This document shows positions 16,896 through 40,679 of a DNA stretch of 55,025 nt, in pieces. The notes beneath the pieces are model-generated. The model saw only the letters and a program-made list of their open reading frames with translations. It ran no database searches and had not been told where the DNA came from. A program made the position numbers and the translations under genes. Origin of the DNA: a bacterium (GTDB lineage Bacteria > Sysuimicrobiota > Sysuimicrobiia > Sysuimicrobiales > Segetimicrobiaceae). Every line of letters begins with the position of its first letter. The first letter of the stretch is position 1. The DNA is taken from positions 1-55,025 of the forward strand of contig DATGFS010000080.1 of NCBI GenBank assembly GCA_035308905.1, in the 5' to 3' direction.

Positions 16896-18266
16896 CTAGG
16901 CGAGCCAGTGTTCGGTGGTTGCGACGTCCGCGCCCCTGACTTGCCACAAGGGCGCCCGCTCGGGATGGTAGCGGGACCCGATCGGAATGGAATAGGTATC
17001 TCCGTCCGCGTAGGAACGCTCGCGTTCCTCGGTGCGGTTGAGCAGTTTGCGGAACGCGAGGGTGCCGGCGGACGGTTGATGTTCGTACAGCCGGCCCGCG
17101 AACACGTCCGTGAGCAGATCCGTGTAGCGACGGTGCACGCATGCCGCGAACGTAAACGGCTGTTCCCAGAACAGGTCGATCATGTCTTCGAGAACGTCGA
17201 TGCCGCGTTCGCTCGACAGCTGGTAGCCTGCAAACGGATTGCCGTTGTCTGTGCGCGCGTTCCCGAGGTACGCGCGCACGAGTGGTGCGATGAACTCAGC
17301 TTCCCGCATCGCGACCGTCACGCCGAACGAAAAGATCGGGTCGATGAAGCGGTGCGCATCTCCGATGCAAAGGAAACCCTTTCCGGAAAACCCGCGGACC
17401 TGGTACGAGTAGTTGGGAATGACGTGGACGTCCTCGACCAGATGGGCCTCGGGAATCCGCCTCGCCAACTCGGGATTGAGCTCACGAATCTCGCGGAGCA
17501 GGAAATCCTGCTTGCTCTCCTTTCGGTCGAGGAAGTAGGCGGACGGGCAGACAATTCCGACGCTTGTGACCTCGCCGTCGATCGGGATAAACCAGGCCCA
17601 GTGAAACTTCTGCTGGTACAGGATGACCGTGTTGCCGGGCTTTTCGTCTCTCGCCTCCCCGGAGTCCCGAATCGCTCCCGTCACCTGGGAGAAGAACGCG
17701 ACCTGCCGATCGTATGCGCCCAGGTACTTTGGGCCGGTCGCTCTGTGGTTTGCGAGGAAGGTGGCTTGGCCGGAGCAGTCGAGCAGCAACTCGGATTCGA
17801 TGTCGAGCGTGCCGCCGCCACCGGCCTGTACCCGCACGCCGTGCACCGAGCCGTCGTCATGCACGAGGGGCCTGATCGCCTTGCCGGGCAGGAACTCGGC
17901 GCCGCGCCGCCGCGCCTCGCTGAACATCATCGCGTCGAACTCGCTGCGCCGGACCGACCACGTGAAGCTGTCTTGGAGCCGCCAGTTCTCGTCCCGGGCC
18001 GTCACCGGTACAAACCACGAGGTCCGGGCGGTAGGTCCGTAGACCTTGACGCCGTACTTCACCGGCCACGCGCGCTCGGTCATTTTCGGCTCGAGGCCGA
18101 GCCGCCGGATGACCTGCCCGCCTTCCCCCGTCAACGATTCGCCAATGTGATACCGGGGAAACGTCTCGGCCTCGACGATCAGCGGAGTGATACCCTGCCG
18201 GAGGAGGAACATCGCGGTGGCCGCTCCGGCCGGTCCCCCGCCAACGATGACGACATCCCGCTTCAT
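16896..18266 (-). CDS. Flavin-dependent halogenase-like FAD enzyme
   Basis: A 456-residue FAD enzyme of the PHBH-fold halogenase group, which uses FADH2 and chloride or bromide to halogenate aromatic or carrier-bound substrates. Seen: dinucleotide motif VIVGGGPAG (6-14), PRYHIGESL (37-45), a candidate catalytic lysine K70, the halogenase signature WAWFIP (223-228; family W-x-W-x-I-P), and a GDAHRFIDPIFSFGV flavin loop. ATG 18266 follows AGGAGG by 8 nt. No flavin reductase is in the window. Geranylgeranyl-reductase-like enzymes are the main alternative but normally lack W-x-W-x-I-P. The nearby carrier protein suggests a tethered substrate (inference). Confidence 0.75.
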   Translation of the reverse strand: MKRDVVIVGGGPAGAATAMFLLRQGITPLIVEAETFPRYHIGESLTGEGGQVIRRLGLEPKMTERAWPVKYGVKVYGPTARTSWFVPVTARDENWRLQDSFTWSVRRSEFDAMMFSEARRRGAEFLPGKAIRPLVHDDGSVHGVRVQAGGGGTLDIESELLLDCSGQATFLANHRATGPKYLGAYDRQVAFFSQVTGAIRDSGEARDEKPGNTVILYQQKFHWAWFIPIDGEVTSVGIVCPSAYFLDRKESKQDFLLREIRELNPELARRIPEAHLVEDVHVIPNYSYQVRGFSGKGFLCIGDAHRFIDPIFSFGVTVAMREAEFIAPLVRAYLGNARTDNGNPFAGYQLSSERGIDVLEDMIDLFWEQPFTFAACVHRRYTDLLTDVFAGRLYEHQPSAGTLAFRKLLNRTEERERSYADGDTYSIPIGSRYHPERAPLWQVRGADVATTEHWLA

Positions 18267-18372
18267 CAGTCGAACCTCCTCAACAACGCGGTCTCCGTCG
18301 ACCACCCCGTACGGACGCGCAGACCTGTCCAATGGTCCTCCACAGAGTACCCGCCCGCCGCAACGGCACATA

Positions 18373-18386
18373 CCATCGTTGGATGG
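18373..18386. promoter_or_regulatory. Palindrome CCATCGTTGGATGG, candidate operator upstream of the halogenase
   Basis: CCATC and GATGG flank a GTTG centre in the 229-nt divergent region between the halogenase and the SGNH-like gene. The centre is about 114 nt upstream of the halogenase ATG. The same architecture recurs at 27699-27712 and 54278-54291. No other convincing motif was found in this gap. Confidence 0.55.
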
Positions 18387-18495
18387 AACCAGCAGCCAAC
18401 CCCAGATGACAATCGATGATATGCCGACGGCGCCAAACAAGCGTTCGCGGCGACCGGCCGAGGGCCACCCGGCGACTACTTCGAAGTATCAGGCC

Positions 18496-19632
18496 ATGCG
18501 GCTCATTCGCAACCTTGCCTTCGCCCTTCTGCTTGGTGTCACCATAGCGCTGCCGCTCGGCTCCGCCCATCCGTCGGACGCGCCGTTTCGGGCAACGCCG
18601 CTCGTTGACTTTGCCCCGAACGAACGCTATCTTCGTCGGTTCGAAGGATTGCTGTACACCGATCCGGCGACAGGTCGCAGCAGCAACGACGTCCCCGCGC
18701 AGCACGACGCCGACGGGAGGAGGATCGCATCCCAGATCGTGCCCCTGGACGCCGACGGCCGGCCATCGCCGTCCGGCAAGATCGGCGTCGTGGCACTGGG
18801 AATGAGCAATTGGACTATGGAGTGGTGCCGGGAGCAGTTCAGGGATTTGAGCCAGTGCACCCCGGACTCTTTTCTCCCGCTGGCGCGCTCCAATCCCGAG
18901 GTCAATCACACGACGCTGGTTCTGGCCGATTGTGCTTTTGCCGGTCTGGTTGCCTACAACTGGGTCGACAATCATAGAAACCCCGGGGCATATACGCTGT
19001 GTCTCACCCAGCGGCTTCCGCTGTGGGGGATAGCGGCGAAGCAGGTCGAGGTCGTGCTGTGGAAAAACGCCGACCCGATCAGATCGGACAATTGGCCGCC
19101 GATGTCCCCGGGCATGGTTTGTCGGGTTGCCGGCGCTCTCAATGCCTCCAACCCGGCAGTGCAGGGATCACCTGATGCGTGCAACTATGAGCGATATACG
19201 GGCATGATGGCTCGTTTCCTGAAGAGCGTCTTCCCTAACGTGAAGCAACTGTTTGTACATGCGCGGATCTATGGTGGCTATGCGACCACGACCCTTAATC
19301 CCGAGCCGTACGCCTACGAGACAGGCTTCGCCACGAAGTGGCTGGTCGACTCACAGATCCGCCAGGTCGCGACTGGTCGGATCGATCCGGTTGCCGGCGA
19401 TCTCGATTATCGCAACGGCGAGGCGCCGTGGATCGCGTGGGGCCCGTATTGGTGGGCTGCCGGCAACACGCCGTGCCGCAATTGCGCGGAGTCCGGGATC
19501 ACCTGGGCGGCCGACGACTTCGATCCCCGCGACGGCATACACCCATCGCCACACGGTGTCGCGAAAGTGGCACGGATGCTGCAGCGGTATTATTTGCAGA
19601 GTCCCTATAGTCCGTGGTTCCGGGCGCACTGA
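18496..19632 (+). CDS. Secreted SGNH/GDSL-like protein
   Basis: A 378-residue protein with a signal peptide (MRLIRNLAFALLLGVTIALP, cleavage near SAHP). Two SGNH landmarks are visible: a block I-like strand ending in GMSN (IGVVALGMSNWTME), with Ser where GDS is usual, and a late DGIHPSPHGVAKVA supplying the Asp-x-x-His pair. In between is ARIYGGYATTTLNPEPYAYE, which I recall from uncharacterised proteins of this type. Such folds are often carbohydrate esterases or acyltransferases; the substrate is unknown. ATG 18496 was chosen for the signal peptide; in-frame ATGs at 18406 and 18421 would add a low-complexity extension. The base composition looks somewhat more AT-rich than the core genes. Confidence 0.65.
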   Translation: MRLIRNLAFALLLGVTIALPLGSAHPSDAPFRATPLVDFAPNERYLRRFEGLLYTDPATGRSSNDVPAQHDADGRRIASQIVPLDADGRPSPSGKIGVVALGMSNWTMEWCREQFRDLSQCTPDSFLPLARSNPEVNHTTLVLADCAFAGLVAYNWVDNHRNPGAYTLCLTQRLPLWGIAAKQVEVVLWKNADPIRSDNWPPMSPGMVCRVAGALNASNPAVQGSPDACNYERYTGMMARFLKSVFPNVKQLFVHARIYGGYATTTLNPEPYAYETGFATKWLVDSQIRQVATGRIDPVAGDLDYRNGEAPWIAWGPYWWAAGNTPCRNCAESGITWAADDFDPRDGIHPSPHGVAKVARMLQRYYLQSPYSPWFRAH

Positions 19633-19665
19633 TATCTCGCGGCCGCAACCGCCGCGACCCCCTCG

Positions 19666-19699
19666 GAGCGAATCAATCGCAGGATTGAATCACTCGCTC
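19666..19699 (+). promoter_or_regulatory. Imperfect long hairpin after the SGNH-like gene
   Basis: An outer GAGCGA (19666-19671)/TCGCTC (19694-19699) stem encloses an inner near-match of GAATCAATC with GATTGAATC around a GCAG loop. It begins 34 nt after the SGNH stop and lacks a U-tract. It may stabilise or end the upstream mRNA. A TATACT -10-like box at 19785-19790 further on could serve the next gene, but no -35 is evident. Nothing else was seen in this 202-nt gap. Confidence 0.4.
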
Positions 19700-19834
19700 T
19701 ACGATAGTCGCGGACGAGTTTCCTCATCGCACGTTGTGTATCGAATCCACCGTTTGCTCGATCATGTCGCGGGATGGCCGTCCGTATACTACCGTCAGGA
19801 CGCCGTGCAATCGATCGCATCGCACAGGAGCGCG

Positions 19835-20863
19835 ATGGACCTCGTTCTGGCTTTTTTCACGGCAATGGTTCTGTCGGTCGTCTTGACACCGGCGTGCGGG
19901 CGGCTGGCATTCTGGATCGGCGCGGTAGACTACCCGTCCGCCCGCAAGGTTCACCTCCGGCCCATGCCTCGGCTCGGGGGAGTGGCCGTGTACGTTGCGC
20001 TTGCGGTGGCCACTCTGCTGTTCCTTCGGGCCACGATCCCCGCCCAAATCACCCTGCTGCTTGCGGGCGCGGGCGCATTCGGCCTCATCGGCTTCGTCGA
20101 CGATATACGAGATTTGGGGATCTCGAAACTGGTGCTGGAAGCCGTCGTCGTCATCGTCGTCACGTGGTTGAGCCACTTTCGCGTCAACCTCCCCTGGCCG
20201 TATGCCGGGGAAATCCTCGCGGTGCTCTGGATCGTGGGAGTCGCCAATGCGATGAACTGCCTCGATTGCATCGACGGCGCGGCGGCCGGCGCTGCGGCGG
20301 TCGGTGCACTGGCTCTTATGCTGTTGGCCCTGCTCGCGCATCGCCCGGGAGTCGCGACCGGGGCCGCCGCGGTGACCGGCGCCGCGCTCGGATTCCTACG
20401 TCACAATTTTTACCCGGCGCGGATCTTCCTCGGCGACAGCGGCAGCCTGATGCTGGGGTTTCTGCTCGCGGGGCTGGGTGCGGCCATCATAGCACCCGGG
20501 ACATCTCCGGTGCCTTGGACGGCTGTGGCCTTGGTCCTCGGTATCCCGACGGTGGATTTTCTCCTCGTCCATGCGCAGCGGTATCGGCGAGGGTTGCGGA
20601 ATCCGTCCGAACTCATAACCTCCACCGGCAAGGATCACCTGCCCCATCGGCTCATGGCCATGGGCCTTCCCGTCCCGGTGGCCGCGACGCAACTCTACGT
20701 AGCCTCTGCGGTCTTCGGGGGGTGCGCGGTCGCGCTCGTCGGACTGGGGCCGTGGGCCGGGCTTGCGGTGGCCCTACCGACGGTGTCGGTTGTCGTGCGG
20801 TGGTCCAAGCTCAACGCGCTGCCCGCGGTTGAGTCCTACGCACCGGCTAAACCCTCACAATAG
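19835..20863 (+). CDS. WecA/TagO/MraY-family undecaprenyl-phosphate sugar-1-phosphate transferase
   Basis: A 342-residue polytopic membrane enzyme (about 10-11 hydrophobic segments) that starts polymer synthesis by placing a sugar phosphate on undecaprenyl phosphate. Catalytic landmarks are ordered as in WecA: KVHLRPMPRLGG, the Asp pair in GFVDDIRDLG, NAMNCLDCIDG, FLGDSGSLMLGF and the His loop GKDHLPHRL. ATG 19835 follows AGGAG by 4 nt; the frame is open upstream across another gene, so that start is rejected. It is a candidate initiator for the EPS made by the locus to the right, though on a separate transcript. Confidence 0.88.
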   Translation: MDLVLAFFTAMVLSVVLTPACGRLAFWIGAVDYPSARKVHLRPMPRLGGVAVYVALAVATLLFLRATIPAQITLLLAGAGAFGLIGFVDDIRDLGISKLVLEAVVVIVVTWLSHFRVNLPWPYAGEILAVLWIVGVANAMNCLDCIDGAAAGAAAVGALALMLLALLAHRPGVATGAAAVTGAALGFLRHNFYPARIFLGDSGSLMLGFLLAGLGAAIIAPGTSPVPWTAVALVLGIPTVDFLLVHAQRYRRGLRNPSELITSTGKDHLPHRLMAMGLPVPVAATQLYVASAVFGGCAVALVGLGPWAGLAVALPTVSVVVRWSKLNALPAVESYAPAKPSQ

Positions 20864-20925
20864 CATGAACCTGCGGCCCTGCGACGAGGAGCAGGATTGC
20901 GCGCGCGTCACACGTACGATGCGCG

Positions 20926-21189
20926 CTAGGACGTCGGACTCTTCGCCGCGCGCTTTCGGTCGATCATCGACGTAATACTCTTCAACGTCGCGAAATTGCT
21001 CGGCACCAGTTCGTCATCCGCGATGTCCACGCCAAGCTCATCCTCGAGGAAGGAAATCAGCATCAGCAGCCCCATCGAGTCGATGACGTGATTGGCGATC
21101 AGCGGATAGTCTTCGGTCAGGGCGCCTACGTCGCCCCCCCAGTGCAGTTCCTGAATGATGAAGTCCCGAACGCTATCGATATGGGACAT
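20926..21189 (-). CDS. Acyl/peptidyl carrier protein
   Basis: An 87-residue four-helix carrier protein. The phosphopantetheine site is Ser38 in NHVIDSMGLLMLISFLE (the D-S-M/L family motif), and ELGVDIADDEL follows in helix II/III. It has its own AGGAGG 6 nt before ATG 21189, and is separated from the upstream hydrolase by 65 nt, unlike the overlapping genes before it. It is not next to fatty-acid genes, so it is probably a dedicated carrier for the adjacent ligase and, by inference, for the dehydrogenase and halogenase. No phosphopantetheinyl transferase is in the window. Confidence 0.85.
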   Translation of the reverse strand: MSHIDSVRDFIIQELHWGGDVGALTEDYPLIANHVIDSMGLLMLISFLEDELGVDIADDELVPSNFATLKSITSMIDRKRAAKSPTS

Positions 21190-21254
21190 CGCGTGCCTCC
21201 TTCGTGAGTCTACAGGCGATCGATCCGTTCTCGGATATACGTGACGGCTGTCAC

Positions 21255-22163
21255 TTATCGCCGGCGCCCCGAGGCCGCGTGCTCCATCCACTTCTCGAGG
21301 CAGGCAACCGTTTGCTGCTGTATCCGCAGGCTCGTCCACTCGTGCACGTTGCCGTCGAGCACTCGCATTTGCACGCAGGCCCTGCCTTGCGCAAGCACCG
21401 TTCCGAGCGCACCCTTCGTCGCGCGCACGAAATTCGCGTAGTCCCCGTCGTTGTTGCCCCAGAGCAATAGCAGCGGTACTCGGGCTCGAATCAAGTCACC
21501 CACCTGCCTGAGTATGGTCGGGTGCACCCTTGGAAATGGCCACCGCATCCGGCGACCGGTGCCCCTCAACCACGCCCACAGCGCTCGAAGAACAGCGAGT
21601 CGTCGGCGTCCGTCGAGCAAGCCCAGCAACATTCCAACGCTGGGTCGGATACGGTCATGGTTTAGGTCGTGAGTGCCCATGCCGGGAGGCAGCAGCGGCA
21701 TGGATATGAGCACTGCGCCTTGGAGTCCTGGTACCCGCCGTGCGGCGGCCGCCACGGTGCGGGCGCCACCACACTTACCGATTAGGACCAGCTTGTCCAT
21801 GCCGCGGCGCCTAAGTTCCGCGACGACGGCGAACAACCCATCGGTGTGGAGCCGTCCAAGATTGAACTCACGTTCCATCCCGGTGCTGTCTCCGGTTCCT
21901 CGCATATCGTACCGAAACACGCGGAAGCCTGCCTTCGCCAGGGAGCGGGCAAGCGCGACGTTGAAGTAGTTTTTCTCCAGCGCGCCCCCCGCGGCACCGG
22001 CGAAGTGCGGGGCCACCAACACGACCGCCTGTTGACGCGGCGGGCCCGCCGGGGTAGTGAGTACGCCAAAGAGCATTTCCGACCCAGCCCGGACCCACAG
22101 CGGCGTATCGTACGGCGCTTCGATGTTATCGTGGACGCGGGGCGTACCCACGGGCGCCGTCAT
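21255..22163 (-). CDS. Alpha/beta hydrolase B2, Cys nucleophile (exosortase-A hydrolase-1-like)
   Basis: A 302-residue alpha/beta hydrolase. The nucleophile elbow is GKCGG with Cys131, the acid is probably in LLWGNNDGD, and the late His is H274 (GNVHEW), so a Cys-Asp-His triad seems complete. FRYDMRGTGDSTG is a typical early loop. Cys-type enzymes of this fold include dienelactone hydrolases and thioesterase/acyltransferase-like proteins. It resembles the hydrolases accompanying exosortase-A EPS loci. The ATG overlaps the stop of A2 by 4 nt. It is a close paralog of B1. Substrate unknown; carrier-bound acyl groups are a reasonable guess. Confidence 0.75.
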   Translation of the reverse strand: MTAPVGTPRVHDNIEAPYDTPLWVRAGSEMLFGVLTTPAGPPRQQAVVLVAPHFAGAAGGALEKNYFNVALARSLAKAGFRVFRYDMRGTGDSTGMEREFNLGRLHTDGLFAVVAELRRRGMDKLVLIGKCGGARTVAAAARRVPGLQGAVLISMPLLPPGMGTHDLNHDRIRPSVGMLLGLLDGRRRLAVLRALWAWLRGTGRRMRWPFPRVHPTILRQVGDLIRARVPLLLLWGNNDGDYANFVRATKGALGTVLAQGRACVQMRVLDGNVHEWTSLRIQQQTVACLEKWMEHAASGRRR

Positions 22164-23053
22164 CGTGCGCCCTCCAGTCGCCCGAGCCAGCCCAGGGTGG
22201 TTTCGATCAATCTGGCGCTCGACTGTGCACCGGCTATCACGAACCACTTGGAGGGATCTTCGCCTGTGATCATCACGCGCTCGACGCGCGACCCGGCGGC
22301 GGCAAGCACGTCACCGAGCGCAACATGCTCCGCCTTCCATTCATTCCGCACACCCACCTGAACGAGTAGAATCGAGCGCGCTTCGCTGGCAAGGTTCTCC
22401 CACAGGCGACACGCGGCGAGACTCTCATAGAGTGCGCGGTAAACCGGGAACCCCAGTACGTCGGCGTAGCCGTCCGTCTCGATCTCCAGGCGCACCTGGT
22501 CGAGGGTCTTCGTCAGCCTACCCTGTGTGGCGAGGGTGAAGACATTCTGCGCACGTACAAACGCCGGAAAGTATCGACGGCCGTCCGACACCGGTTCCCA
22601 AAGGGCAACCGGAATCGCGGTATCCCCCGCGACGGCCAGGCCGGCCACCAAGGCGCCCGCCCGGATGCCGCAAAATGCGAGCGATCCGGATTGCGTCAAC
22701 TCCGTCGCGATATCGGCGGCAGCTTTGGCATCGTCAGCCCAGTTGCGCAATGTGGCCGTCTCGCGGTCACCGCCGCTGTGGCCTGTCCCCCGATAGTGGA
22801 CCCGCACCGCGGCGTACCCGCGAACCGCGAATGCGCGCGCCGCGTCCACTTCGAGACGGTACAGCATACCGGCCTCTTTGGAGAAGGAAGGGCATAAGAC
22901 GACGGTCCGACGCGCGGGGGTTTGGGGCCTGTAGAGCACGCAAAAGAGGTCGCTGCCGTCGCGCCTGACGAACATCGCGTCCTCGCGTACGTGGTTGGTC
23001 TCATCGATGCGCGTCGCTGTGCGGACGGGATACGTCAGGGTTCCTATGGGCAT
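22160..23053 (-). CDS. Alpha/beta hydrolase-fold protein A2, Arg in place of nucleophile (hydrolase-2-like)
   Basis: A 297-residue alpha/beta-hydrolase-fold protein. The elbow reads GIRAG with Arg131 where Ser or Cys is expected, so it is probably not a classical hydrolase. Landmarks shared with A1: FCVLYRP, VRVHYRGTGHS, ALWEPVSDGRRYFPAFVRAQ. The G-x-R-A-G elbow is what I recall for exosortase-A-associated hydrolase 2. ATG 23053 follows GGAGGA by 7 nt; TTG 23056 is in frame but less likely. The gene begins 3 nt after the B1 stop and overlaps B2. A possible role is a partner or acyl-binding subunit for B2. Confidence 0.72.
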   Translation of the reverse strand: MPIGTLTYPVRTATRIDETNHVREDAMFVRRDGSDLFCVLYRPQTPARRTVVLCPSFSKEAGMLYRLEVDAARAFAVRGYAAVRVHYRGTGHSGGDRETATLRNWADDAKAAADIATELTQSGSLAFCGIRAGALVAGLAVAGDTAIPVALWEPVSDGRRYFPAFVRAQNVFTLATQGRLTKTLDQVRLEIETDGYADVLGFPVYRALYESLAACRLWENLASEARSILLVQVGVRNEWKAEHVALGDVLAAAGSRVERVMITGEDPSKWFVIAGAQSSARLIETTLGWLGRLEGAR

Positions 23054-23056
23054 CAA

Positions 23057-23938
23057 TCAGTCCTCCGAGTCCGCGGGCATAACGTGTTCCACCCAGCTTC
23101 GTAGGCACGCGACAATTCGCTGCTGGACCGCCAGGGTCGTCGGGTCATACACTCCGCCTTCGAGCACTTGTACCTGCGCCCGGTCGCCGCCTCGTTCCAG
23201 CAGCTTCCCGAGCGGCCCCCTCATCGCCCGCGAAAATTTTACATAGAATCTGTCGTCGGTGCCGTACAGGAAGAGCAGCGGTACCCGGGCTCGGATCGCG
23301 TTACGCACGTGCATGAGCAACACCGGGTGAAGGCCGGGAAACGGCCATCTCATCCGCCGTCCCGTACTCCTCGCCCAGGCCCACAGCGCCCGAAGAACAG
23401 CGTGCCGCCGGCGCCCATCGAACAAGCCCACCAGCATTCCCGGATTGGGCAGGAAGTAATTCCGATCGTAGGTGCCCATGCCCGGCGGGAGCAGGTTTGT
23501 GGAGATCAGCGCCACACCTTTGAGTCCGGCCAGTTGCCCGGCGGCGGCCAGCACCGTGCGCGCGCCAAAACACTTTCCGATGAGGACGACCCGGTCCATC
23601 CCGCGGCGCCGCAGTTCGGCTACGACCGCCATCACATCGTCGGTATGGAGCCTGCCGAAATTTAGCTCGGGCTCGGTTCCGGTGCTCTCTCCGGAACCTC
23701 GCATGTCGTATCGGAACACATTAAACCCGGCATTCCCCAGGCTGCGGGCGAGCGCGACGTGCAACCCGTTCTTCTCCACACGCGGGAAGACCAGCACCGC
23801 AGTGAGGCATCGGCGCGGCCCCGCCGGAGCCGTCAGTATACCGAGCAGCGCTTCAGGTCCGGACTGGACCCACACCGGTGTATCGTGCGACTTCTCGATC
23901 TCGGGACCTACGCGCGGCGTGTCCGTCGTCTGCATCAT
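23057..23938 (-). CDS. Alpha/beta hydrolase B1, Cys elbow but no late His
   Basis: A 293-residue paralog of B2. It keeps the elbow GKCFG (Cys123) and an acidic GTDD, but the residue matching B2 His274 is Tyr264 (GGVYDP). It is also about 8 residues shorter after the first strand (VLVFPRVEKNG against VLVAPHFAG plus a longer loop), where the oxyanion hole forms. B1 may thus be catalytically weakened or changed. The ATG at 23938 overlaps the A1 stop (ATGA); a long upstream open frame runs over A1 and is not used. It belongs to the duplicated A-B unit. Confidence 0.72.
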   Translation of the reverse strand: MMQTTDTPRVGPEIEKSHDTPVWVQSGPEALLGILTAPAGPRRCLTAVLVFPRVEKNGLHVALARSLGNAGFNVFRYDMRGSGESTGTEPELNFGRLHTDDVMAVVAELRRRGMDRVVLIGKCFGARTVLAAAGQLAGLKGVALISTNLLPPGMGTYDRNYFLPNPGMLVGLFDGRRRHAVLRALWAWARSTGRRMRWPFPGLHPVLLMHVRNAIRARVPLLFLYGTDDRFYVKFSRAMRGPLGKLLERGGDRAQVQVLEGGVYDPTTLAVQQRIVACLRSWVEHVMPADSED

Positions 23939-24852
23939 GGGTTGTCCCGGAGACCTTCGAGCCACCGCGCGGTGCTCTCCAACAGGACGCCGCTGGAGTG
24001 CACGTCGGGAAGCACGAACCAGTTGGCGGGATTTTCGCCGGTGATCAACGCGCGCTCGACCCGTGACCCCGCGGCGGCGAGCGCGTTGCCGAGCGTTGCG
24101 TGCTCCGCCTTCCATTCGTCCCGCATCCCCACTTGAACCAGCAAGACCGGGCGCGCCGCACATGCAAGTATCTCCCGCAACCGGCACGCGGCCAGGCTTT
24201 CGTAGAGCGCACGGTGAATGGGAAATCCGAGGGCGTCGGCGCAGCCCTTCGTCTCGATTTCTTGCCGCACTTGGGCGATGGTCTTCCGCTGACTGCCCTC
24301 GGTCGCCAGCACAAGGGCGTTCTGCGCGCGGACGAACGCCGGAACGTATCGGGCGCCGTCCGCCACCGGCTCCCACAGGGCGAGAGGAATCCCTGCACTT
24401 TCGGCGACGGCCGTCGCAGCGACGAGCGTACCCGCCCGAATCCCGATGAATGCCAGCGATTCGGATTGCGTCATCTTGGCCGCGACATTGGCGGCGGTCT
24501 TGACGTCGTCGGCCATGTCGTTCACGGTTGCGGTGCTGCGGTCGCCGTGGCTGTGCCCGGTCCCCCGGTAGTGGACGCGGACTGCCGCGTACCCCATGGC
24601 CGCAAACGCGCGCGCCGCGCCGACTTCGAAACGATACAGCATCTCCGCCTCTCCGAGAAACGAGCGGCAGATGATGACGGTCCGTCGTACCGAGCCGAGC
24701 GGTCGGTAGAGTACGCAGAAGAGGTCATGACCGCCGCGCCGCACGAACATCGCGTCTTCGCGCACGCCTGACACAGCGTCGATGCGGGTGGCCACCCGCG
24801 CCGGGTGTGCGACGGGGTCTCCCGCTTCGAGGAGGTGCTGATCCGTAATCAC
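23935..24852 (-). CDS. Alpha/beta hydrolase-fold protein A1, Arg in place of nucleophile
   Basis: A 305-residue paralog of A2 with the same Arg elbow (GIRAG, Arg139) and the same landmarks FCVLYRP, VRVHYRGTGHSHGD, LALWEPVADGARY. The start is GTG 24852, overlapping the ligase stop as GTGA with no separate ribosome-binding site, so translation probably depends on the ligase. Both A copies share the Arg, so the substitution predates the duplication and is likely functional. Its role is unknown; a non-catalytic or atypical partner of B1 is plausible. Confidence 0.72.
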   Translation of the reverse strand: MITDQHLLEAGDPVAHPARVATRIDAVSGVREDAMFVRRGGHDLFCVLYRPLGSVRRTVIICRSFLGEAEMLYRFEVGAARAFAAMGYAAVRVHYRGTGHSHGDRSTATVNDMADDVKTAANVAAKMTQSESLAFIGIRAGTLVAATAVAESAGIPLALWEPVADGARYVPAFVRAQNALVLATEGSQRKTIAQVRQEIETKGCADALGFPIHRALYESLAACRLREILACAARPVLLVQVGMRDEWKAEHATLGNALAAAGSRVERALITGENPANWFVLPDVHSSGVLLESTARWLEGLRDNP

Positions 24853-26471
24853 GCCGGAGTGGCTGGGGCGGCCGGCCGGGTCGCTTCCGTGGCCTTCAAC
24901 GCGGCCGCCAGGGCCCCGCGATCGACTTTGCCGGTCGACGTCTGCGGCAGGGTTTCAAGGAACGTGAACGACTCGGGGACCATGTACTTGGGCAGCAGGG
25001 TCGCGCTAAAGCGGGCCAGTTCGCCGTCCGTGAGTGGCCCCTGCTGCGGCACGACGAACGCCTTGAGCCGACTGCCGACCACGTCATCGGGCACGGCGAT
25101 GACCGCGCACGCCGCAACCTGCGGGTGGCTGTGCAGGGCGGCTTCAATGTCGCCGATCTCGATGCGGTAGCCGCGGCTCTTGATCTGGTGGTCGCGGCGG
25201 CCCAGGAACAGGAAATCGCCGTCGGGCGTCTCCTGCACGAGGTCGCCGGTGCGGTACACGCGCTCCGCGGTGGCACCAAACGGATGCTCGATGAAGGCGC
25301 GCGCCGTGCCCTCCGCGTTCCCCCAGTACCCGTAGGCCACGGTATCGCCCCGGACGTGCAGTTCGCCGACCTCGCCCCGCGCGGCCCGCCGCCCATCGTC
25401 GTTGACGGCAAAGACCTCGACGTTGGCGATAGCGCGCCCGATCGGAATAGGGGCCGTTTGATCCTCCGGCAGGGGGGGCACCCGGTAGTAGGTGCAGACG
25501 TTGGTCTCCGTCGGACCGTAGAGATTCGTGAATTCGGCGTGCGGCAGGAGCGCCATGAGGCGCCGGAGGTGCTTGGTCGGGAACACCTCGCCTGCGAAGA
25601 TCACGTGGCGCAGGGACGGGAGCCGGCCCGCCCTGAGGCGGCCGTGGAGCAGGAGCAGCGTCAGGATCGACGGCACGGAATACCAGATTGTTATGCGCTC
25701 CCGCTCGATAAGCTCGGCCAGCTGCGCCGGGAAGACCGACGTCTCGGGGGCAACGACGACGAGCGTTGAGGACGCCATGGCCGCGAGGTAGATGTCTAGG
25801 ATCGTCAGGTCGAAGTGGAGCGGCGCGTGGTTGGAGAGCACATCGGTGGGACGGGGCCGGAAGTAGTCACGACACCACTCGACGAAGGCCAACGCGTTCT
25901 GGTGCGAGAGCATGACCCCCTTGGGCTGTCCGGTCGACCCGGAAGTGTACAGAATGTACGCGAGATCCCGCGAAATTCCGGGCAGCGGGAATGCTTGGTC
26001 CGGCGAGGCCTCAAGGGCCTCCCGCGCCAGATGCGCCGTCCCGGCGGGCGGCGGGGGCAGATCACGTTCCCTGCCATCCAGGACGACGAAACGGTCGACC
26101 GGCGCCCCGGCCCGCCGCAATTCGTCCCAGGCGTCCGATTTTTCGCGGCCGGTCACGAGGCAGTGGATATCACAGTTCCGCGCGATGTAGGCAAGCCGCG
26201 CGGCGGGCGCAAGAGGATCGAGCGGGACGTAGGCGGCGCCGGCTTTGAGGATGCCGTAAACACCCGTGATGGCGTCCACCGACTTGGACAGGAACAATCC
26301 CACTCGGGCCCCTGGTCGTACGCCGGCATCCCTTAACACCCGCGCCAGCCGGTTGGTCCGGCGGTCGAGCTCACCGTACGAGATGGAACCGTTCGCATCG
26401 CGAACCGCCGTGTGGTCGGGGCGGCGGCACGCGGCCTCCGGCACGAGATGCGACAAGAGGTACGGTCTCAT
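24849..26471 (-). CDS. Amino-acid-type adenylating ligase (PltF-like, stand-alone A domain)
   Basis: A 540-residue ANL-family enzyme that activates a carboxylate as its adenylate and loads it on a carrier protein. Core motifs in order: TSGSTGQPKG (176-185), HFDLTILDIYLA with Asp221 (the Asp that contacts the alpha-amino group in amino-acid-activating domains), NLYGPTE (316-322), YRTGDL (406-411), DHQIKSRGYRIE (427-438) and the catalytic Lys515 in TSTGKVDR. The stretch ITIWYSVPSILTLLL resembles prolyl-carrier-protein ligases of pyrrole pathways, as I recall them. No condensation or carrier domain is fused. The ATG overlaps the dehydrogenase stop. Confidence 0.82.
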   Translation of the reverse strand: MRPYLLSHLVPEAACRRPDHTAVRDANGSISYGELDRRTNRLARVLRDAGVRPGARVGLFLSKSVDAITGVYGILKAGAAYVPLDPLAPAARLAYIARNCDIHCLVTGREKSDAWDELRRAGAPVDRFVVLDGRERDLPPPPAGTAHLAREALEASPDQAFPLPGISRDLAYILYTSGSTGQPKGVMLSHQNALAFVEWCRDYFRPRPTDVLSNHAPLHFDLTILDIYLAAMASSTLVVVAPETSVFPAQLAELIERERITIWYSVPSILTLLLLHGRLRAGRLPSLRHVIFAGEVFPTKHLRRLMALLPHAEFTNLYGPTETNVCTYYRVPPLPEDQTAPIPIGRAIANVEVFAVNDDGRRAARGEVGELHVRGDTVAYGYWGNAEGTARAFIEHPFGATAERVYRTGDLVQETPDGDFLFLGRRDHQIKSRGYRIEIGDIEAALHSHPQVAACAVIAVPDDVVGSRLKAFVVPQQGPLTDGELARFSATLLPKYMVPESFTFLETLPQTSTGKVDRGALAAALKATEATRPAAPATPA

Positions 26472-27610
26472 AAGCCCAACCTTCCCGCGATGATGTTCTT
26501 TTGAATGTCCGAGGTCCCGGAGTAGAGACGGCCTCCGACGGCGTCCCGGACGTCCCGCTCCAGTTCGTACTCTTCCGTGTAGCCGTAGCCTCCGTGGACC
26601 TGCACGGCGTCGAGGCTTGACGCAAGGAACGCTTCGCTGACGTGGAGTTTGGCCGTGGCCGATGCCGCCGACGTGTTCTGGCCGGCCGCGCGCAGCCATC
26701 CCAATTTGTAGAGCAACAGCCGGGAGGTCTCGAGTCGCACCTGCATGTCCACCAGCCGGTGGGACACAGCCTGAAACTTGCCGATCGGCTGGCCGAACTG
26801 TCGGCGCTCCTTGGCGTAGCGGATGCAGCGTTCGAGCTGCCGCTGCATCGTGCCGATCGCGCATGCCAGGATGTACCCGCGCTCCCACTCCATCGATGAG
26901 TTGAAGACGGTCAAGCCCCCTCCGAGCGGGCCTAGGAGGGTGTCCTCCGGCACCTCGCAGTCCTCGCACACGACCTCTCCCATCGGAGAGGTCCGCAAAC
27001 CCATCTTGTGTATCTCGCGGCTGACCGAAAGGCCCGGGGTATTGCGCTCGACGAGGAACGCGGAGACGCCCCAGAATCCCTCGCCGCCGGTGCGGGCGAA
27101 CACGACGAAGACGTCCGCGACCGGGGCGTTGGTGATGAATGTCTTCGTGCCGTTCAGGACGTAGCCCCCGGTGGTCCGCTCCGCCCGCGTCGTGAGCCCG
27201 AACGCATCTGAGCCGGATGCGGGTTCCGTCATCGCCTGCACGCCGATGAGGGATCCGTCGCATAGCCCCGGCAGGAATCGCCGCTTCTGATCCTCCCGGC
27301 CGAATGTAAGGATCGGCATCTGGCAGCTCCACATCTGGGCGCCGAGAGAGAACAGCAGACCGTTGTCCGCGCAGGCGTACCCGAGCGCCTCCAGCGCAAT
27401 CGCAAGCGACAGCGGGTCCAGACCGCTTCCGCCGTAGTCCTCGGGAATCGGAAATCCCTGCACGCCGAACGAGGCACACCGCTGCCACAGGATCCGCGAA
27501 AATTCCCCGCGAGCGTCCCGCCCGGCGACATCGTCGGCGAGCTCGCGGCGCGCAAAACGCACCACGGCTTCACGCAGTTCTTTCTGTTCCTTCGAAGGCT
27601 CGAAATCCAT
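26468..27610 (-). CDS. Acyl-CoA dehydrogenase-family flavoenzyme (PltE/RedW-like)
   Basis: A 380-residue FAD dehydrogenase, first gene of the minus-strand operon. Family landmarks: PEDYGGSGLDPL, AMTEPASGSDAFGL, GTKTFITNAP, FNSSMEWERGYI, RRQFGQPIGKFQAVSHRLVDM and GTSDIQ. In medium-chain enzymes the last motif carries the catalytic Glu; here it is Asp368. As I recall, dehydrogenases that oxidise prolyl-carrier protein to the pyrrole share NAP-ADIF, SSM-WER and GTSD features. A fatty-acyl or isovaleryl-type dehydrogenase is the alternative. ATG 27610 has only a weak G-rich upstream site. The adjoining ligase and carrier protein favour a tethered substrate. Confidence 0.8.
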   Translation of the reverse strand: MDFEPSKEQKELREAVVRFARRELADDVAGRDARGEFSRILWQRCASFGVQGFPIPEDYGGSGLDPLSLAIALEALGYACADNGLLFSLGAQMWSCQMPILTFGREDQKRRFLPGLCDGSLIGVQAMTEPASGSDAFGLTTRAERTTGGYVLNGTKTFITNAPVADVFVVFARTGGEGFWGVSAFLVERNTPGLSVSREIHKMGLRTSPMGEVVCEDCEVPEDTLLGPLGGGLTVFNSSMEWERGYILACAIGTMQRQLERCIRYAKERRQFGQPIGKFQAVSHRLVDMQVRLETSRLLLYKLGWLRAAGQNTSAASATAKLHVSEAFLASSLDAVQVHGGYGYTEEYELERDVRDAVGGRLYSGTSDIQKNIIAGRLGL

Positions 27611-27959
27611 GCCGCCCGCGCGGCCCCCCGCCGTTTCCCGCGATTGGTACAGTCTATTGCTGCGCCCTACTTTAGGCGTTGATCTTTTGATAGTCCCCCC
27701 ATCGTGCGATGGATTTGCCCTGTCCAGTCGATGCGCGGCCCCGGCTGGTGGCAATTCGGCGCGAACGTGTCGCGACGGCGTCGCCGCCCGTACACATGCG
27801 AACACCAGATCGCTGTACGAATGAACGATCCGGTAGATCAATTGCATCAGTCAAATGTCCGGTGGGCCGAAGGGCGGGATCATGTCCAGCGGCCAACTGC
27901 ATGCTCACGAAAGCAAATCGAAGGGATCAAACGATATCGTCGGACGGCGGGGGGTACCG
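27611..27959. other. 349-nt divergent intergenic region between the dehydrogenase operon and the EPS regulator
   Basis: No gene is supported here; short open frames have no ribosome-binding site or recognisable product. It must hold promoters for the minus-strand operon and probably for the regulator at 27960, but no clear -35/-10 pair was found. Its notable element is the palindrome at 27699-27712. The AT content is locally higher around 27640-27700 and 27820-27860. Confidence 0.5.
27699..27712. promoter_or_regulatory. Perfect palindrome CCATCGTGCGATGG, candidate operator
   Basis: Six-base arms CCATCG and CGATGG flank TG. The centre is about 95 nt upstream of the dehydrogenase ATG (27610) and about 254 nt upstream of the response-regulator ATG. 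It is one of three CCATC-4 nt-GATGG elements in the window. A dimeric regulator is implied; which one is unknown. Confidence 0.6.
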
Positions 27960-28652
27960 ATGGACAGAGTGAGGGTGCTCATTGTAGACGACACAACCCT
28001 GATGCGACAGGGCCTCAAGAGTCTTCTTGAGCACCACGACGGCGTCGAGTTCGTGGGCGAGGCGACGAACGCCGCTGACGCCACCGAGCTAGCGGCGCGG
28101 CTGCGGCCGGATGTGATCCTGCTGGACGTCGACATGCCGGGCCTCGATGCCGCCGAGGCGATTCGTCTGACCAAACAGCACCACCCCGAGGTCGAGATCA
28201 TCGCGTTGGCCGAGGATACGGACCATCAGCGTGCGATGCGCGCCCTCGAGGCCGGGGCGACGGGCTTCGTGTTGAAGGACATCAGCCCCGACGATCTCAT
28301 CCGGGCGATCGACGCCGTGTGTCACGGCCGTACCCTGATGGACCCGTACGTCGCCCGGCAGCTGATTGAGCGGCTGCAAACCATCATTCAGCACAACAAC
28401 CACAACAACAACGGTAACAACCACGAGAACGGCGTGCAGCTCGGCGGGCTGTCCGGGCGGGAGCTGGAAATCCTTCTTGAGGTGACCCGCGGCGCAACCG
28501 ACCGGGAGATCGGGCAGAAGCTCTTTCTGAGCACCTCGACCGTGAAAAGCCACATCCACTCGATCCTCGGCAAGATCGGCGTGAAGAACCGGACCCAGGC
28601 CGTCGCCTACGTCCTGACAAACGGGCTGGTGCGGCGGCGTCTGCCGGTGTGA
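27960..28652 (+). CDS. NarL/LuxR-family response regulator
   Basis: A 230-residue two-domain regulator. The receiver domain (1-125) has the acidic pair D10/D11, phosphoacceptor Asp56 (VILLDVDMPG) and Lys106 (VLKD); the usual Thr/Ser of strand 4 is Ala84 (IALAED). The LuxR-type helix-turn-helix (about 163-225) contains LSGRELEILLEV, REIGQKLFLSTSTVKSHI and KNRTQAVAY. Between them is an Asn/His-rich linker (145-157). ATG 27960 follows a G-rich site; in-frame ATGs at 27855 and 27882 would add an unrelated extension. No sensor kinase is nearby. Only 25 nt separate it from the next gene, so it probably heads the EPS transcript. Confidence 0.88.
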   Translation: MDRVRVLIVDDTTLMRQGLKSLLEHHDGVEFVGEATNAADATELAARLRPDVILLDVDMPGLDAAEAIRLTKQHHPEVEIIALAEDTDHQRAMRALEAGATGFVLKDISPDDLIRAIDAVCHGRTLMDPYVARQLIERLQTIIQHNNHNNNGNNHENGVQLGGLSGRELEILLEVTRGATDREIGQKLFLSTSTVKSHIHSILGKIGVKNRTQAVAYVLTNGLVRRRLPV

Positions 28653-28677
28653 CGTGGCCGTCTCGGGGGGGCCAATC

Positions 28678-28869
28678 ATGAAGGCGGTGCACGTCAAGGT
28701 CGAATCGGTGAAGACCCCACCGTCCAATTGGGCGATCGGGACGCCGTTCATTTATCAGTCGTCATTGTGGAGGATCAACGGCACGTATCTCGTGACGTCG
28801 CGCTCGGGGGTCCGGGAAGTGTGGTGGATTCTCGCGGAGCGGGCGAGCGACAATTGGTCGGCTGAATAG
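28678..28869 (+). CDS. Small protein of unknown function
   Basis: A 63-residue soluble protein (from MKAVHVKVESV to ERASDNWSAE), Trp-rich for its size, with no membrane segment or known domain that I recognise. ATG 28678 follows GGGGGG by 7 nt, and the stop lies 11 nt before the wza-like start, within whose ribosome-binding site region it ends. It has a short-spaced place between regulator and export gene, so it is probably cotranscribed. Real coding is supported by context and composition only. Confidence 0.5.
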   Translation: MKAVHVKVESVKTPPSNWAIGTPFIYQSSLWRINGTYLVTSRSGVREVWWILAERASDNWSAE

Positions 28870-28880
28870 GAGGGCGGGCG

Positions 28881-29777
28881 ATGAAACGGCGCCGGGAAGT
28901 GCGCGCAGTGCTTGGAGCCATGCTGACGGCCGTGCTGCTGGCCGCGGTCGTACCACCGGTCTTGGGCGACGCATACGTGGTGGCGCCGGGAGACACCATG
29001 AGCGTCACCGTGCTCAACGAGCCGTCGTTGAGCGGTTCCTACACCGTCGATCCCGACGGGAAGATCGCGCTGCCGCTTGCCGGCAGCATCCCTGTCGAGG
29101 GACTGACGCTCGACCAGGTGACGTCGACGATCGCCAAGGCGCTTGAGCCCTACATTGTCAAGCCGCAGGTCACCGTGGCGCTGCGGACCGTGAGCTCCAG
29201 AAACTACGTGTACGCGCTCGGTCAGGTCACAAAAACGGGTTCGTATACGATGGAACGCGGCTGGACCATCGCCGACCTCATCGCGGCCGCGGGCGGGACC
29301 ACGTCGAGAGCCGCGCTGACCCAGGCGTTCATCCTCAGAAAGGACCAGACGATTCCCGTCGACCTCGATGCGCTGATCGTGAAGGGGCAGACGTCCGCAA
29401 ACGTGGCGCTGCAACCCGGCGACGTGATCATCGTGCCGGAGACCAAGAACACCGTGCAGGTCATGGGCGAGGTGCTCCATCCCGGCAACTACACGTTCAA
29501 GGCGGGTGATCGTGTCGTCGACGTCATCTCAACCGCCGGCGGCAATACCACAAACGCCATCATCAAGGACGTCGGCGTGATCCGGCAGGACACCACCAAG
29601 AAGGCGGCCACCGTCATTCATATCGATCTGAACAAGTTCTACAAGGCCGGCGATCAGGCCCAGAACGTACCGTTGCTGCCCGGCGACATTGTGTACGTAC
29701 CGCCGAAGGGAACGAACTGGCTCCAGGTTGTGTCGCAGCTCACCGGATTCGCGACGTTGATCACGATCTTCAAGTAG
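28881..29777 (+). CDS. Polysaccharide export protein, Wza-like (Poly_export + SLBB)
   Basis: A 298-residue secreted protein. The signal peptide (LGAMLTAVLLAAVVPPVLG) lacks a lipobox Cys, unlike enterobacterial Wza lipoprotein. The Poly_export domain starts YVVAPGDTMSVTVLNEPSLSG. Two SLBB domains follow, near 110-190 (VYALGQVTKTGSYTM) and 193-280 (VQVMGEVLHPGNYTF). There is no obvious C-terminal amphipathic barrel helix. Such proteins form the periplasmic or outer part of EPS export channels. ATG 28881 follows AGGAGGG by 6 nt. It lies directly before the Wzc-like partner. Confidence 0.92.
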   Translation: MKRRREVRAVLGAMLTAVLLAAVVPPVLGDAYVVAPGDTMSVTVLNEPSLSGSYTVDPDGKIALPLAGSIPVEGLTLDQVTSTIAKALEPYIVKPQVTVALRTVSSRNYVYALGQVTKTGSYTMERGWTIADLIAAAGGTTSRAALTQAFILRKDQTIPVDLDALIVKGQTSANVALQPGDVIIVPETKNTVQVMGEVLHPGNYTFKAGDRVVDVISTAGGNTTNAIIKDVGVIRQDTTKKAATVIHIDLNKFYKAGDQAQNVPLLPGDIVYVPPKGTNWLQVVSQLTGFATLITIFK

Positions 29778-29801
29778 CACGGACGAAGGGGGCGGGCTGC
29801 G

Positions 29802-31964
29802 ATGGAAGTCTGGAAGTATTACCGGGTTCTGCGACGGTGGCGGTGGGTCATCGTTGCCGCGATGATCGCGGGCGTCCTCGGCGGGCTGGCCTTTTACCGG
29901 CCCGGCATCCACGACTACAGCGCCACGGCGATCCTGCTGGTGCCGTCGGCCGACAGCGCCGCGTTCTCGACCCACCAAACCCAAGGGCCGGGGCAGACCC
30001 GAGGGTTGGCGGTCCTCGGGCGCATCTGGAGCTCCGACATTGCCGAGCGCGTGATTCAAGACCTCCACATGAACGAAAGTGTGTATGGGTTCCACCTGCG
30101 GCTGGCCGCCGCGCAGGACAAGGACAACCCGCTCATCCACATCGCGGTGAGCGGCCGGACCCCGCGCGAGGCCATTGCGCTCGCCAACGCGGTGGCGGAC
30201 ACGGTCGCACAGGACGACCGGGACGCCGGACAGCGGGACTTCACCGTCGCCCGTGAACTGGTGGAACGTCAGCTCACCACGGCGCAGGCGCAGGAACAGG
30301 CGTTGCAGGCGCAGCTCCTGGCTTTCGAGCGTGCGAACCAGGCGGACCTCTCGTCGCCGGCGCTCGTCCAGATCACCAGCCTCCAGACGCAGTTGCAGGA
30401 CAACGACGTGGCGCTCCGGGAGGTGCAGGCCCGGTTGACCTCCACGAACGCCCAGTTGCAACAGCAGGGACCGACGCGAACCGAGCGCGAGCTCACGACC
30501 AACCCACAGACAGAGAGCATCCGAACACAGTTGCTGAACGCGGAGATCTCCCTCACGGGCGAGCTCGCATATCATACGGAGAGCCACCCTCATGTGATCG
30601 CGCTCAAGAAGCAGATCGACGGGCTCAAGGCACAGCTGGCCGCCGCGCTGACTCAGGCCGAGAACGCACGGCAGATCGTCCACAACGCGTTGTACGATTC
30701 CCTGACGGCGGCGCGCATCAACTTGGTGACGGACGAGATGGCGCTCGAAGCGAAGCGGGACGCATGGCAGCAGGTGATCGCCGCCACTGCGCGCCAGCTT
30801 CCCGTGGTGGCCCAGAAGAAAGCGCAGCAGGCCGGCTATTCCCGTGCCATCGGGGACCTCGACCGGATGATCCAATCGTTGACTCAGCAGGTCAGCGACG
30901 CCCGGCTGCGCGAGCAGGCGGCGCAGGCTCAGGCCAACGTGAGTGTGGTCGATCGTGCGCAGTCGGCGCAGGCAAACCCGTTCCGGGCTGAGGGATTCGT
31001 CCTGATGTTCGCGCTGATGCTCGGGCTGCTCCTCGGCGTCGGCTTGGCCGGTCTGTTGGAGTACCTCGACAATACCGTAAAGACGCCGCAGCGGGCGGAA
31101 GGGATCCTCGGCGTTCCCAACCTGGCCGCGATTCCGTCGCACAATCCTCCGTTCAATGAGGCGTATCGGATGCTGCGCGTGAACCTGACCGCGCTCGAAC
31201 ACGACAAACCGGAGATCTTTGCGTTCACGGGCGTGAAGCCGGGGGTCGGGACGTCGACGGTGGTCGCAAACACCGCACGTGCGTTTGCGCGGGCAGGCCG
31301 CCGGACGATCGTCGTCGATGCCGCGGTGGAGCGGCCTGTGCTGCACTCACGCTTTGGAGTGCCGAACGACATCGGCCTCGCAGACGTGCTGAACGCCCGC
31401 GCGACCTTGGCCGAAGCCCTGGTGCCCACCGGTGTCCGGAACCTCGAGGTCCTGCCGGCCGGCACGGTCGCGGCGGACGAAGGCGCGGTCGACGGACGCT
31501 TTGGCTCAACGGCCATGCGAGATCTGCTGACGGCGCTGCACGGGCGGGCGGACGTCGTGCTTTTCGATACCTCGCCGGCGTCGATCTTCTCTGCGACGCT
31601 GGACCTGGCACCGCTCATGTCCGGGGTTATCCTGGCCATCGACGCCCGCCAGGTGCCTCGCGGGTTGGAGCTGCAGGCCAAGACTCAACTGACCCGCGTC
31701 GGCGCCAGTTTGCTCGGGATGGTGTTGACCCGTATGCGCCCGGATCTGGTTGACAGCTATTACTACTACGATCGCCAGCTCAAGCCGCAGCGGCCGGGAC
31801 TGTCGCCGGCGATGGCCGCTACGGGACTGGCGGTGCTGATCGGGGCGGCCGGCCTCGTGGCGGCGCTGCTCCTCAGGCGCGCCGGGCTGCACCTGCCGGC
31901 ATTCGGCGAGGTGCTGGTGCGGTGGGCACCGTTCCTCCATTTCGGCGTCTTCGGCGGTCGTTAG
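29802..31964 (+). CDS. Wzz/Wzc-like chain-length protein with degenerate tyrosine-kinase domain
   Basis: A 720-residue inner-membrane polysaccharide co-polymerase. TM1 lies near residues 15-32, a long periplasmic coiled-coil region rich in Gln/Ala runs to about 400, and TM2 is near 405-425. The cytoplasmic P-loop domain follows (about 450-655). Walker A reads GVKPGVGTST (477-486) and lacks the Lys of GEGKST; Walker A' reads VVDAAVERP instead of D-x-D-x-R; Walker B VVLFDTSP is kept. A Tyr cluster (Y653-Y656) is present as in BY-kinases, but a third hydrophobic segment (LAVLIGAAGLVAALLL) follows it. It is 24 nt after the Wza-like gene. Confidence 0.88.
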   Translation: MEVWKYYRVLRRWRWVIVAAMIAGVLGGLAFYRPGIHDYSATAILLVPSADSAAFSTHQTQGPGQTRGLAVLGRIWSSDIAERVIQDLHMNESVYGFHLRLAAAQDKDNPLIHIAVSGRTPREAIALANAVADTVAQDDRDAGQRDFTVARELVERQLTTAQAQEQALQAQLLAFERANQADLSSPALVQITSLQTQLQDNDVALREVQARLTSTNAQLQQQGPTRTERELTTNPQTESIRTQLLNAEISLTGELAYHTESHPHVIALKKQIDGLKAQLAAALTQAENARQIVHNALYDSLTAARINLVTDEMALEAKRDAWQQVIAATARQLPVVAQKKAQQAGYSRAIGDLDRMIQSLTQQVSDARLREQAAQAQANVSVVDRAQSAQANPFRAEGFVLMFALMLGLLLGVGLAGLLEYLDNTVKTPQRAEGILGVPNLAAIPSHNPPFNEAYRMLRVNLTALEHDKPEIFAFTGVKPGVGTSTVVANTARAFARAGRRTIVVDAAVERPVLHSRFGVPNDIGLADVLNARATLAEALVPTGVRNLEVLPAGTVAADEGAVDGRFGSTAMRDLLTALHGRADVVLFDTSPASIFSATLDLAPLMSGVILAIDARQVPRGLELQAKTQLTRVGASLLGMVLTRMRPDLVDSYYYYDRQLKPQRPGLSPAMAATGLAVLIGAAGLVAALLLRRAGLHLPAFGEVLVRWAPFLHFGVFGGR

Positions 31965-32011
31965 CGATTTCGGGACGCACGCTCGTAGACTTTCTGCGGA
32001 GGACGAACGAA

Positions 32012-37206: not shown

Positions 37207-37248
37207 CCGCTCCGTCGCGGGCCCACGGAAGGATCGGAGGCACGTTCA

Positions 37249-39413: not shown

Positions 39414-39417
39414 GGCG

Positions 39418-40677: not shown

Positions 40678-40679
40678 CC

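Follow-up and report, generated by a model that had tools for sequence, protein, structure and literature searches.

A predicted proline-to-pyrrole carrier cassette with paired hydrolases beside an exopolysaccharide locus in a Sysuimicrobiota bacterium

Pyrrolyl-carrier chemistry and the halogenases that act with it are known so far from small antibiotics and pigments. In clorobiocin and coumermycin biosynthesis, a ligase (CloN4), a carrier (CloN5) and a dehydrogenase (CloN3) turn proline into a carrier-bound pyrrole, and the acyltransferase CloN7 transfers the pyrrole carboxyl group from the carrier to a sugar hydroxyl, namely that of noviose in clorobiocin (PMC11218499). The same activities are found in the Bmp pathway (the carrier–thioesterase Bmp1, the brominase Bmp2, which sets the precedent for the halogenation chemistry (PMC8407142), and the dehydrogenase Bmp3) and in PltA, PltE, PltF and PltL of pyoluteorin synthesis. 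Cell envelopes offer a different parallel: in Dlt, a small carrier receives an amino acid from a stand-alone ligase, and the acyl group then passes to an envelope polymer (PMC9338922). Exopolysaccharide (EPS) loci of the exosortase-A type hold a set comprising hydrolase 1 (TIGR03100), hydrolase 2 (TIGR03101), a ligase (TIGR03098), a carrier and a decarboxylase (TIGR03099). We know of no function that has been assigned to the carrier, hydrolase 1 and hydrolase 2 of this set. Here we compare these systems with a gene cassette in a 55,025-nucleotide stretch of a Sysuimicrobiota genome (the window, meaning the whole stretch analysed; assembly GCA_035308905.1, contig DATGFS010000080.1), which we read as a candidate carrier-protein acylation module for EPS.

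The cassette is a single minus-strand run from 27610 to 20926 that encodes, in order, a dehydrogenase (DH), a ligase (LIG), four alpha/beta-hydrolases (HYd, HYc, HYb and HYa) and a carrier (ACP), with 4-bp overlaps or gaps of no more than about 65 bp between neighbours. A predicted flavin halogenase (HAL) is encoded on the same strand. An earlier note on this DNA had placed HAL, ACP, LIG and DH on the minus strand; all four were confirmed at 16896–27610, with family matches far above chance. The note had overlooked the four hydrolase genes (21255–24852) that occupy the gap between carrier and ligase. All of these enzyme kinds are known, and their combination is new. Below, G000 is the genome of the window and C80 its contig, G041 is a genome from the same order but another family, L-numbers are the homologous loci compared, and hydr1 and hydr2 stand for hydrolases 1 and 2.

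Ligase, dehydrogenase and carrier

LIG (540 amino acids; 24849..26471, minus strand) is a predicted stand-alone L-proline adenylating ligase. Its best single-domain relative in the PDB is PltF (352 bits), which is outscored by multi-domain nonribosomal peptide synthetase (NRPS) chains solely through their summed domains; over the specificity (core) region, PltF (124 bits) and PigI (87 bits) are the top two of all PDB chains. The protein also matches TIGR01733 above its cut-off (401 bits) and retains Asp221, the equivalent of Asp235. Extraction of the specificity code, as the earlier note had proposed, gave the ten residues DLLYIALVCK from the alignment, compared with DLLYLALVC in PltF and DLFYIAWVC in PigI. 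Over the nine positions that the alignment with PltF covers, eight are identical and the remaining one is Ile for Leu. Codes of this type occur in most ligases that adjoin a DH homologue in other genomes. With its stand-alone adenylation domain, proline code and PltF as nearest relative, LIG belongs with the L-prolyl-carrier ligases of the PltF/PigI/RedM/CloN4 class. The code rejects a non-amino-acid ligase, and the amino-acid reading proposed earlier stands.

DH (380 amino acids; 26468..27610, minus strand) is a predicted L-prolyl-carrier dehydrogenase of the AnaB/Bmp3/RedW class. Its nearest PDB relatives are AnaB (4irn; 412 bits) and Bmp3 (335 bits), together with a RedW-type enzyme. The NCBIfam models for PigA (438 bits) and the RedW type (430 bits) match below their curated cut-offs of 500 and 650, and we therefore do not file DH as PigA or RedW themselves. 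In a quick tree of 85 sequences, DH falls within a 61-row clade that includes AnaB, Bmp3 and the RedW-type enzyme (Shimodaira–Hasegawa-like approximate likelihood ratio test support, 100), apart from 24 generic acyl-CoA dehydrogenases. Members of this clade mostly have an MxWER base position and a Ser before GT, whereas most of the generic enzymes compared have Glu there. DH reads MEWER and YSGT (within YSGTSDIQ, which contains the GTSD motif seen earlier), so it has the YxGT form, with Ser in place of the Glu of medium-chain acyl-CoA dehydrogenases. A fatty-acyl dehydrogenase is rejected by both clade and signature; the earlier PltE-like assignment holds in that DH joins AnaB, Bmp3 and other prolyl-carrier dehydrogenases.

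ACP (87 amino acids; 20926..21189, minus strand) is a type II acyl or peptidyl carrier whose top PDB matches are the peptidyl carrier 2my5, PigG, the Bmp1 carrier and PltL; the PF00550 match falls just under the cut-off (18.1 versus 20.8 bits). The putative phosphopantetheine site is the Ser of DSM in HVIDSMGLL. Its small size, its DS site and the PigG/PltL/Bmp1-type carriers as its nearest relatives place ACP with the type II pyrrolyl carriers. Unlike in the Bmp and pyoluteorin systems, the carrier is a separate protein with no thioesterase fusion, no polyketide synthase (PKS) is seen in the window and EPS genes adjoin.

Taken in sequence, LIG would adenylate L-proline and load it onto ACP, and DH would oxidise the prolyl-S-ACP to a pyrrole-2-carboxyl-S-carrier. 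On the basis of these family assignments, formation of a pyrrolyl-S-carrier is very probable, in keeping with the carrier-bound heteroaromatic acyl group envisaged by the earlier note.

Hydrolase pairs, halogenase and related loci

HYa (21255..22163) and HYc (23057..23938) resemble hydrolase 1 of exosortase-A loci, and HYb (22160..23053) and HYd (23935..24852) resemble hydrolase 2; all four genes are on the minus strand. The pairs are a tandem duplication (59% protein identity between HYa and HYc and 66% between HYb and HYd; about 70% in DNA). Both hydrolase 1 copies have a Cys nucleophile, in GKCGG (Cys131) in HYa and in GKCFG in HYc, and HYa keeps the conserved Asp and His beside it. The window has the GxCxG Cys in hydrolase 1 and GxRxG in hydrolase 2, with the two genes adjacent and a carrier gene alongside, within an EPS locus. 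A true TIGR03100 member from Pseudothauera (L144) has the same Cys (GLCDG) and an adjacent hydrolase 2, in an exosortase-A EPS locus with the order ACP-hydr2-hydr1-GT2-Wzx (GT, glycosyltransferase). Because ACP-hydr2-hydr1 is common to both, we regard the window as the same transfer core joined to a proline-to-pyrrole loading unit; it differs from the exosortase-A set in its proline-type ligase and its dehydrogenase. Genome G000 has a strong exosortase match (PF09721, 259 bits; G000:C33:13741-14499), which lies on contig C33 and not in the locus on C80; the organism thus has exosortase sorting, though away from this locus. No decarboxylase in the genome scores over the TIGR03099 cut-off.

The comparison with related genomes that the earlier note had suggested recovered cassettes inside EPS loci from G041, Chloroflexi and Spartobacteria. 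The G041 homologues (DH 67%, LIG 58% and ACP 46% identity) lie within one plus-strand EPS operon with the order response regulator-Wza-Wzc-kinase-NusG-UDP-sugar dehydrogenase-hydr2-hydr1-DH-LIG-ACP-sulfatase-GTs and on to Wzx, all on a single strand. In this operon (L090/L091, G041:C1:62000-101999), a NusG-family antiterminator (PF02357) precedes the UDP-sugar dehydrogenase and the pyrrolyl cassette. In four Chloroflexi loci (L006, L008, L009 and L076) and two contig fragments (L125 and L127), DH-LIG-ACP adjoins glycosyltransferase genes and is accompanied by one or two membrane acyltransferases of the Acyl_transf_3 type; the order is GT-DH-LIG-ACP-(HAL)-Acyl_transf_3-epimerase-GT, with the epimerase present where the contig is long enough. 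Several of the Chloroflexi loci carry one or two halogenases that cluster with Mpy16 (support 100/100) and keep the S-V/I-W site residues. L076, L125 and L127 are EPS-embedded examples of such Mpy16-clade enzymes, with the S-V/I-W of dihalogenating enzymes, and in L125 two of them stand in tandem between membrane acyltransferases. The Spartobacteria EPS locus L034 has two close HAL homologues beside the set (HAL-HAL-ACP-LIG-DH); the genes that come next encode a GT4, a Wzx-like protein, sulfotransferases and a UDP-sugar dehydrogenase. A further Chloroflexota locus (L150:8709-17400) reads DH-CapK-like-LIG-Bmp2-type HAL-sulfotransferase-like-second halogenase-ACP, and then a polysaccharide-deacetylase-like gene. 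That the module recurs in EPS loci is thus directly visible in the sequences. The prolyl-type dehydrogenase is scarce (3/400 Chloroflexota genomes at E ≤ 1e-135), and all three of these genomes have LIG and ACP alongside, with an acyltransferase, a hydrolase or halogenases adjoining. Glycan neighbours are enriched (9/54 versus 0/26 loci, p = 0.023), which is weak evidence because these loci themselves supplied part of the references and related genomes are non-independent; the operon structures therefore carry the polysaccharide argument.

HAL (456 amino acids; 16896..18266, minus strand) is a predicted flavin-dependent carrier-pyrrole halogenase. The earlier note had used PltA as its reference, but Bmp2 is nearer (5bva, 239 bits, versus 131 for Mpy16 and 117 for PltA), and HAL forms a clade with this pyrrolyl-carrier brominase (support 100/100), not with reductases that lack halide chemistry. 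The ranking of PDB matches likewise rejects the tryptophan-halogenase class. The motifs GGGPAG, FPRYHIGESLTG and WAWFIP (the W-x-W-x-I-P seen earlier) are present and the catalytic Lys is kept, so that HAL combines GxGxxG, GESL, the Lys, WxWxIP and a clade shared with a proven pyrrolyl-carrier halogenase, as expected of variant B carrier-dependent halogenases. At the equivalents of Bmp2 Y302/F306/A345, HAL differs in having F/V/L, and Mpy16 has S/V/W; a triple mutation of these residues stops Bmp2 at two bromines (PMC8407142). Homologues of HAL (46–67% identity) were seen only beside DH-LIG-ACP (L021, two in L034, and L150) or ACP (L124), in orders that include the operonic HAL-ACP-LIG-DH of L034 and the DH-LIG-HAL-ACP of L021. 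At E ≤ 1e-100, HAL occurs in 3/26 genomes selected for DH compared with 0/782 others (Fisher's exact test, p ~3e-5), the latter being members of the two phyla to which the L021 and L034 genomes belong, with related genomes not fully independent. A search of plasmids gave no HAL match. In two phyla that are not related, a gene for a membrane protein of the Na+/H+ exchanger family (PF00999), a possible halide or ion transporter, adjoins genes for halogenases of the Bmp2 type (L034:3393-4835 and L124:2059-3345).

Proposed pathway and competing explanations

In the model that we propose, HAL would act on the carrier-bound pyrrole as Bmp2 does, with FADH2 from a housekeeping flavin reductase. The pyrrolyl group would then move to the Cys of HYa and from there to a hydroxyl group, or an amine, on the glycan. 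In this transfer, the Cys hydrolase-1 protein or proteins would work with their nucleophile-less hydrolase-2 partners. The acceptor would be the neighbouring EPS or its lipid-linked precursor, before export, and the likely product an EPS decorated with pyrrole that is perhaps chlorinated or brominated. The last step is drawn by analogy with CloN4/N5/N3 and CloN7, which bring a pyrrole to a sugar, and with Dlt, which brings a carrier-bound amino acid, D-alanine, to a polymer, teichoic acid. The clorobiocin and coumermycin pathways differ in their small antibiotic target, methylation step and second carrier, where the window has a module of Cys hydrolases in pairs next to EPS genes. Dlt (DltA, DltC, DltB and DltD) shares the stand-alone amino-acid ligase, the small carrier and transfer to an envelope polymer; in the window, oxidation would turn the amino acid into an aromatic ring, which would probably be halogenated. 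No DltB/DltD-type pair was identified in our comparison. Helper enzymes are encoded elsewhere in the genome: searches with PF01648 and PF01613 found one phosphopantetheinyl transferase and one flavin reductase, and neither is among the window genes tested, as the earlier note had stated.

Halogenation in this organism is likely, and attachment to a glycan, which gene context and analogy suggest, is somewhat better than an even prospect. For the full halopyrrole-transfer model of the DH-LIG-HYd-HYc-HYb-HYa-ACP run, our confidence is only slightly above even. The earlier suggestion that the locus may decorate a polysaccharide has moved from speculation to the leading hypothesis through the EPS-embedded cassettes of other genomes; we infer the transfer to the glycan itself, and likewise that HAL uses halide, what the acceptor is and that the hydrolases act as transferases.

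Several observations weigh against this model. The hydrolases score well under the family cut-offs (TIGR03100, 45–51 bits versus 168, with HYa at 51; TIGR03101, 81 bits for HYb and 82 for HYd versus 203). In HYc the catalytic His is replaced (GVYD), and in the GIRAG of HYb and HYd an Arg stands at the nucleophile position; a transferase function is therefore tentative. As its twin HYa keeps the His, HYc may be a partner subunit that arose by duplication. The predicted model of HYa has an alpha/beta-hydrolase fold, and a fold search returned only generic alpha/beta-hydrolases, so esterase and transferase are not separated. The cassette and the EPS operon are transcribed in opposite directions, and HAL, which is its own transcription unit, is separated from the run by two plus-strand genes and has no homologue in G041; it may serve something other than the cassette. 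Finally, the same core lies inside NRPS/PKS clusters in other loci (L014, L018, L021 and others), and the core alone thus implies no glycan product.

Some of these points favour a small-molecule halopyrrole pathway that merely lies beside an EPS locus, with the hydrolases as thioesterases whose product is a free (halo)pyrrole carboxylate or a halopyrrole, as in the synthesis of tetrabromopyrrole by Bmp. The nearest relative of HAL is Bmp2, whose pathway ends in thioesterase release; the opposite strand, the same halogenase in the PKS/NRPS-type cluster of L021 and the island-like location after ftsK are in line with such a pathway. Against it, the G041 cassette from the same order sits inside an EPS operon on the same strand, the versions in Chloroflexi and Spartobacteria have glycosyltransferases as neighbours, together with acyltransferases, and ACP-hydr2-hydr1 is shared with an exosortase-A EPS locus. 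We regard this alternative as unlikely. An NRPS or PKS product encoded in the window itself is rejected, as no such gene is among the window proteins tested.

Alternatively, EPS might be decorated with a pyrrolyl group that is not halogenated, the flavin enzyme acting elsewhere or being a hydroxylase or other oxygenase. The separate transcription of HAL and the same core without HAL in G041 fit this version, which the Bmp2 clade, the catalytic Lys, WxWxIP, the operonic arrangements of L034 and L021 and the strong co-occurrence make rather improbable. From its separation in the window and its absence from G041, we take HAL to be an optional tailoring step; its linkage elsewhere (L021, L034, L124 and L150) and its co-occurrence make halogenation likely but optional. 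Plain proline decoration, with DH acting on another substrate, is the way Dlt works and LIG also matches DltA models, but it is very improbable given the clade and base signature of DH and the position of its gene, which overlaps LIG by 4 bp here and neighbours it in most loci.

Returning to halopyrrole transfer, a broader version is tentative, with a probability somewhat below even: in several phyla, a halogenated pyrrole-2-carboxyl group on a dedicated carrier may be attached to surface EPS, in a Dlt-like manner, by a Cys hydrolase pair (the window and G041) or by Acyl_transf_3 (Chloroflexi). In a literature search whose coverage was thin on subscription journals, nothing relevant was found that linked exosortase to a carrier and hydrolases, a halogenase to both exopolysaccharide and pyrrole, or prolyl or pyrrolyl groups to polysaccharide; nor did any paper describe the present combination in EPS loci, which recurs with halogenases from two clades and transferases of two types. 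Such halogenated surface glycans are likewise described in no paper that we found. If the module does decorate surface polysaccharides, it would represent a new class of glycan modification, and it would give the carrier, hydrolase 1 and hydrolase 2 of exosortase-A loci a testable function as carrier-fed acyl transferases.

Genomic setting and neighbouring genes

The EPS locus (27855..52747, plus strand) includes genes for a response regulator and a CapK-like protein. It also encodes UDP-sugar dehydrogenases, several glycosyltransferases, a Wzm/Wzt-like ATP-binding cassette exporter and a nucleotidyltransferase, along with proteins that we take, from reading of the sequences, to be Wza-like, Wzc-like and AsnB-like. 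The CapK-like enzyme was placed next to the cassette by the earlier note, which did not hold: a motif scan of the window gave no CapK gene, and a tblastn homology search then gave a weak match (E ~1e-10) about 22 kb away, at ~49.7–50.2 kb.

Neither DH nor HAL was found in genomes of the same genus. In genome G002, ftsK is followed by what we take, from reading of the sequences, to be a helix-turn-helix gene, cinA and recA, with none of the window genes; as this order differs, what follows ftsK in the window is an island or a rearrangement. The GC content at third codon positions is 0.75–0.84 in the cassette and 0.90 in ftsK.

The two plus-strand genes between ACP and HAL encode a WecA-like polyprenyl-phosphate sugar-1-phosphate transferase (19727..20863; PF00953, 100 bits), as the earlier note had recognized, and a secreted SGNH-like protein (18496..19632), divergent from HAL. 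The latter has no Pfam or NCBIfam match and no homologue in the other loci compared, and is recognized by a signal peptide and the motifs GMSNW and DGIHP only. It is a candidate for a surface esterase, or for an acyltransferase, with EPS or another glycan as its substrate.

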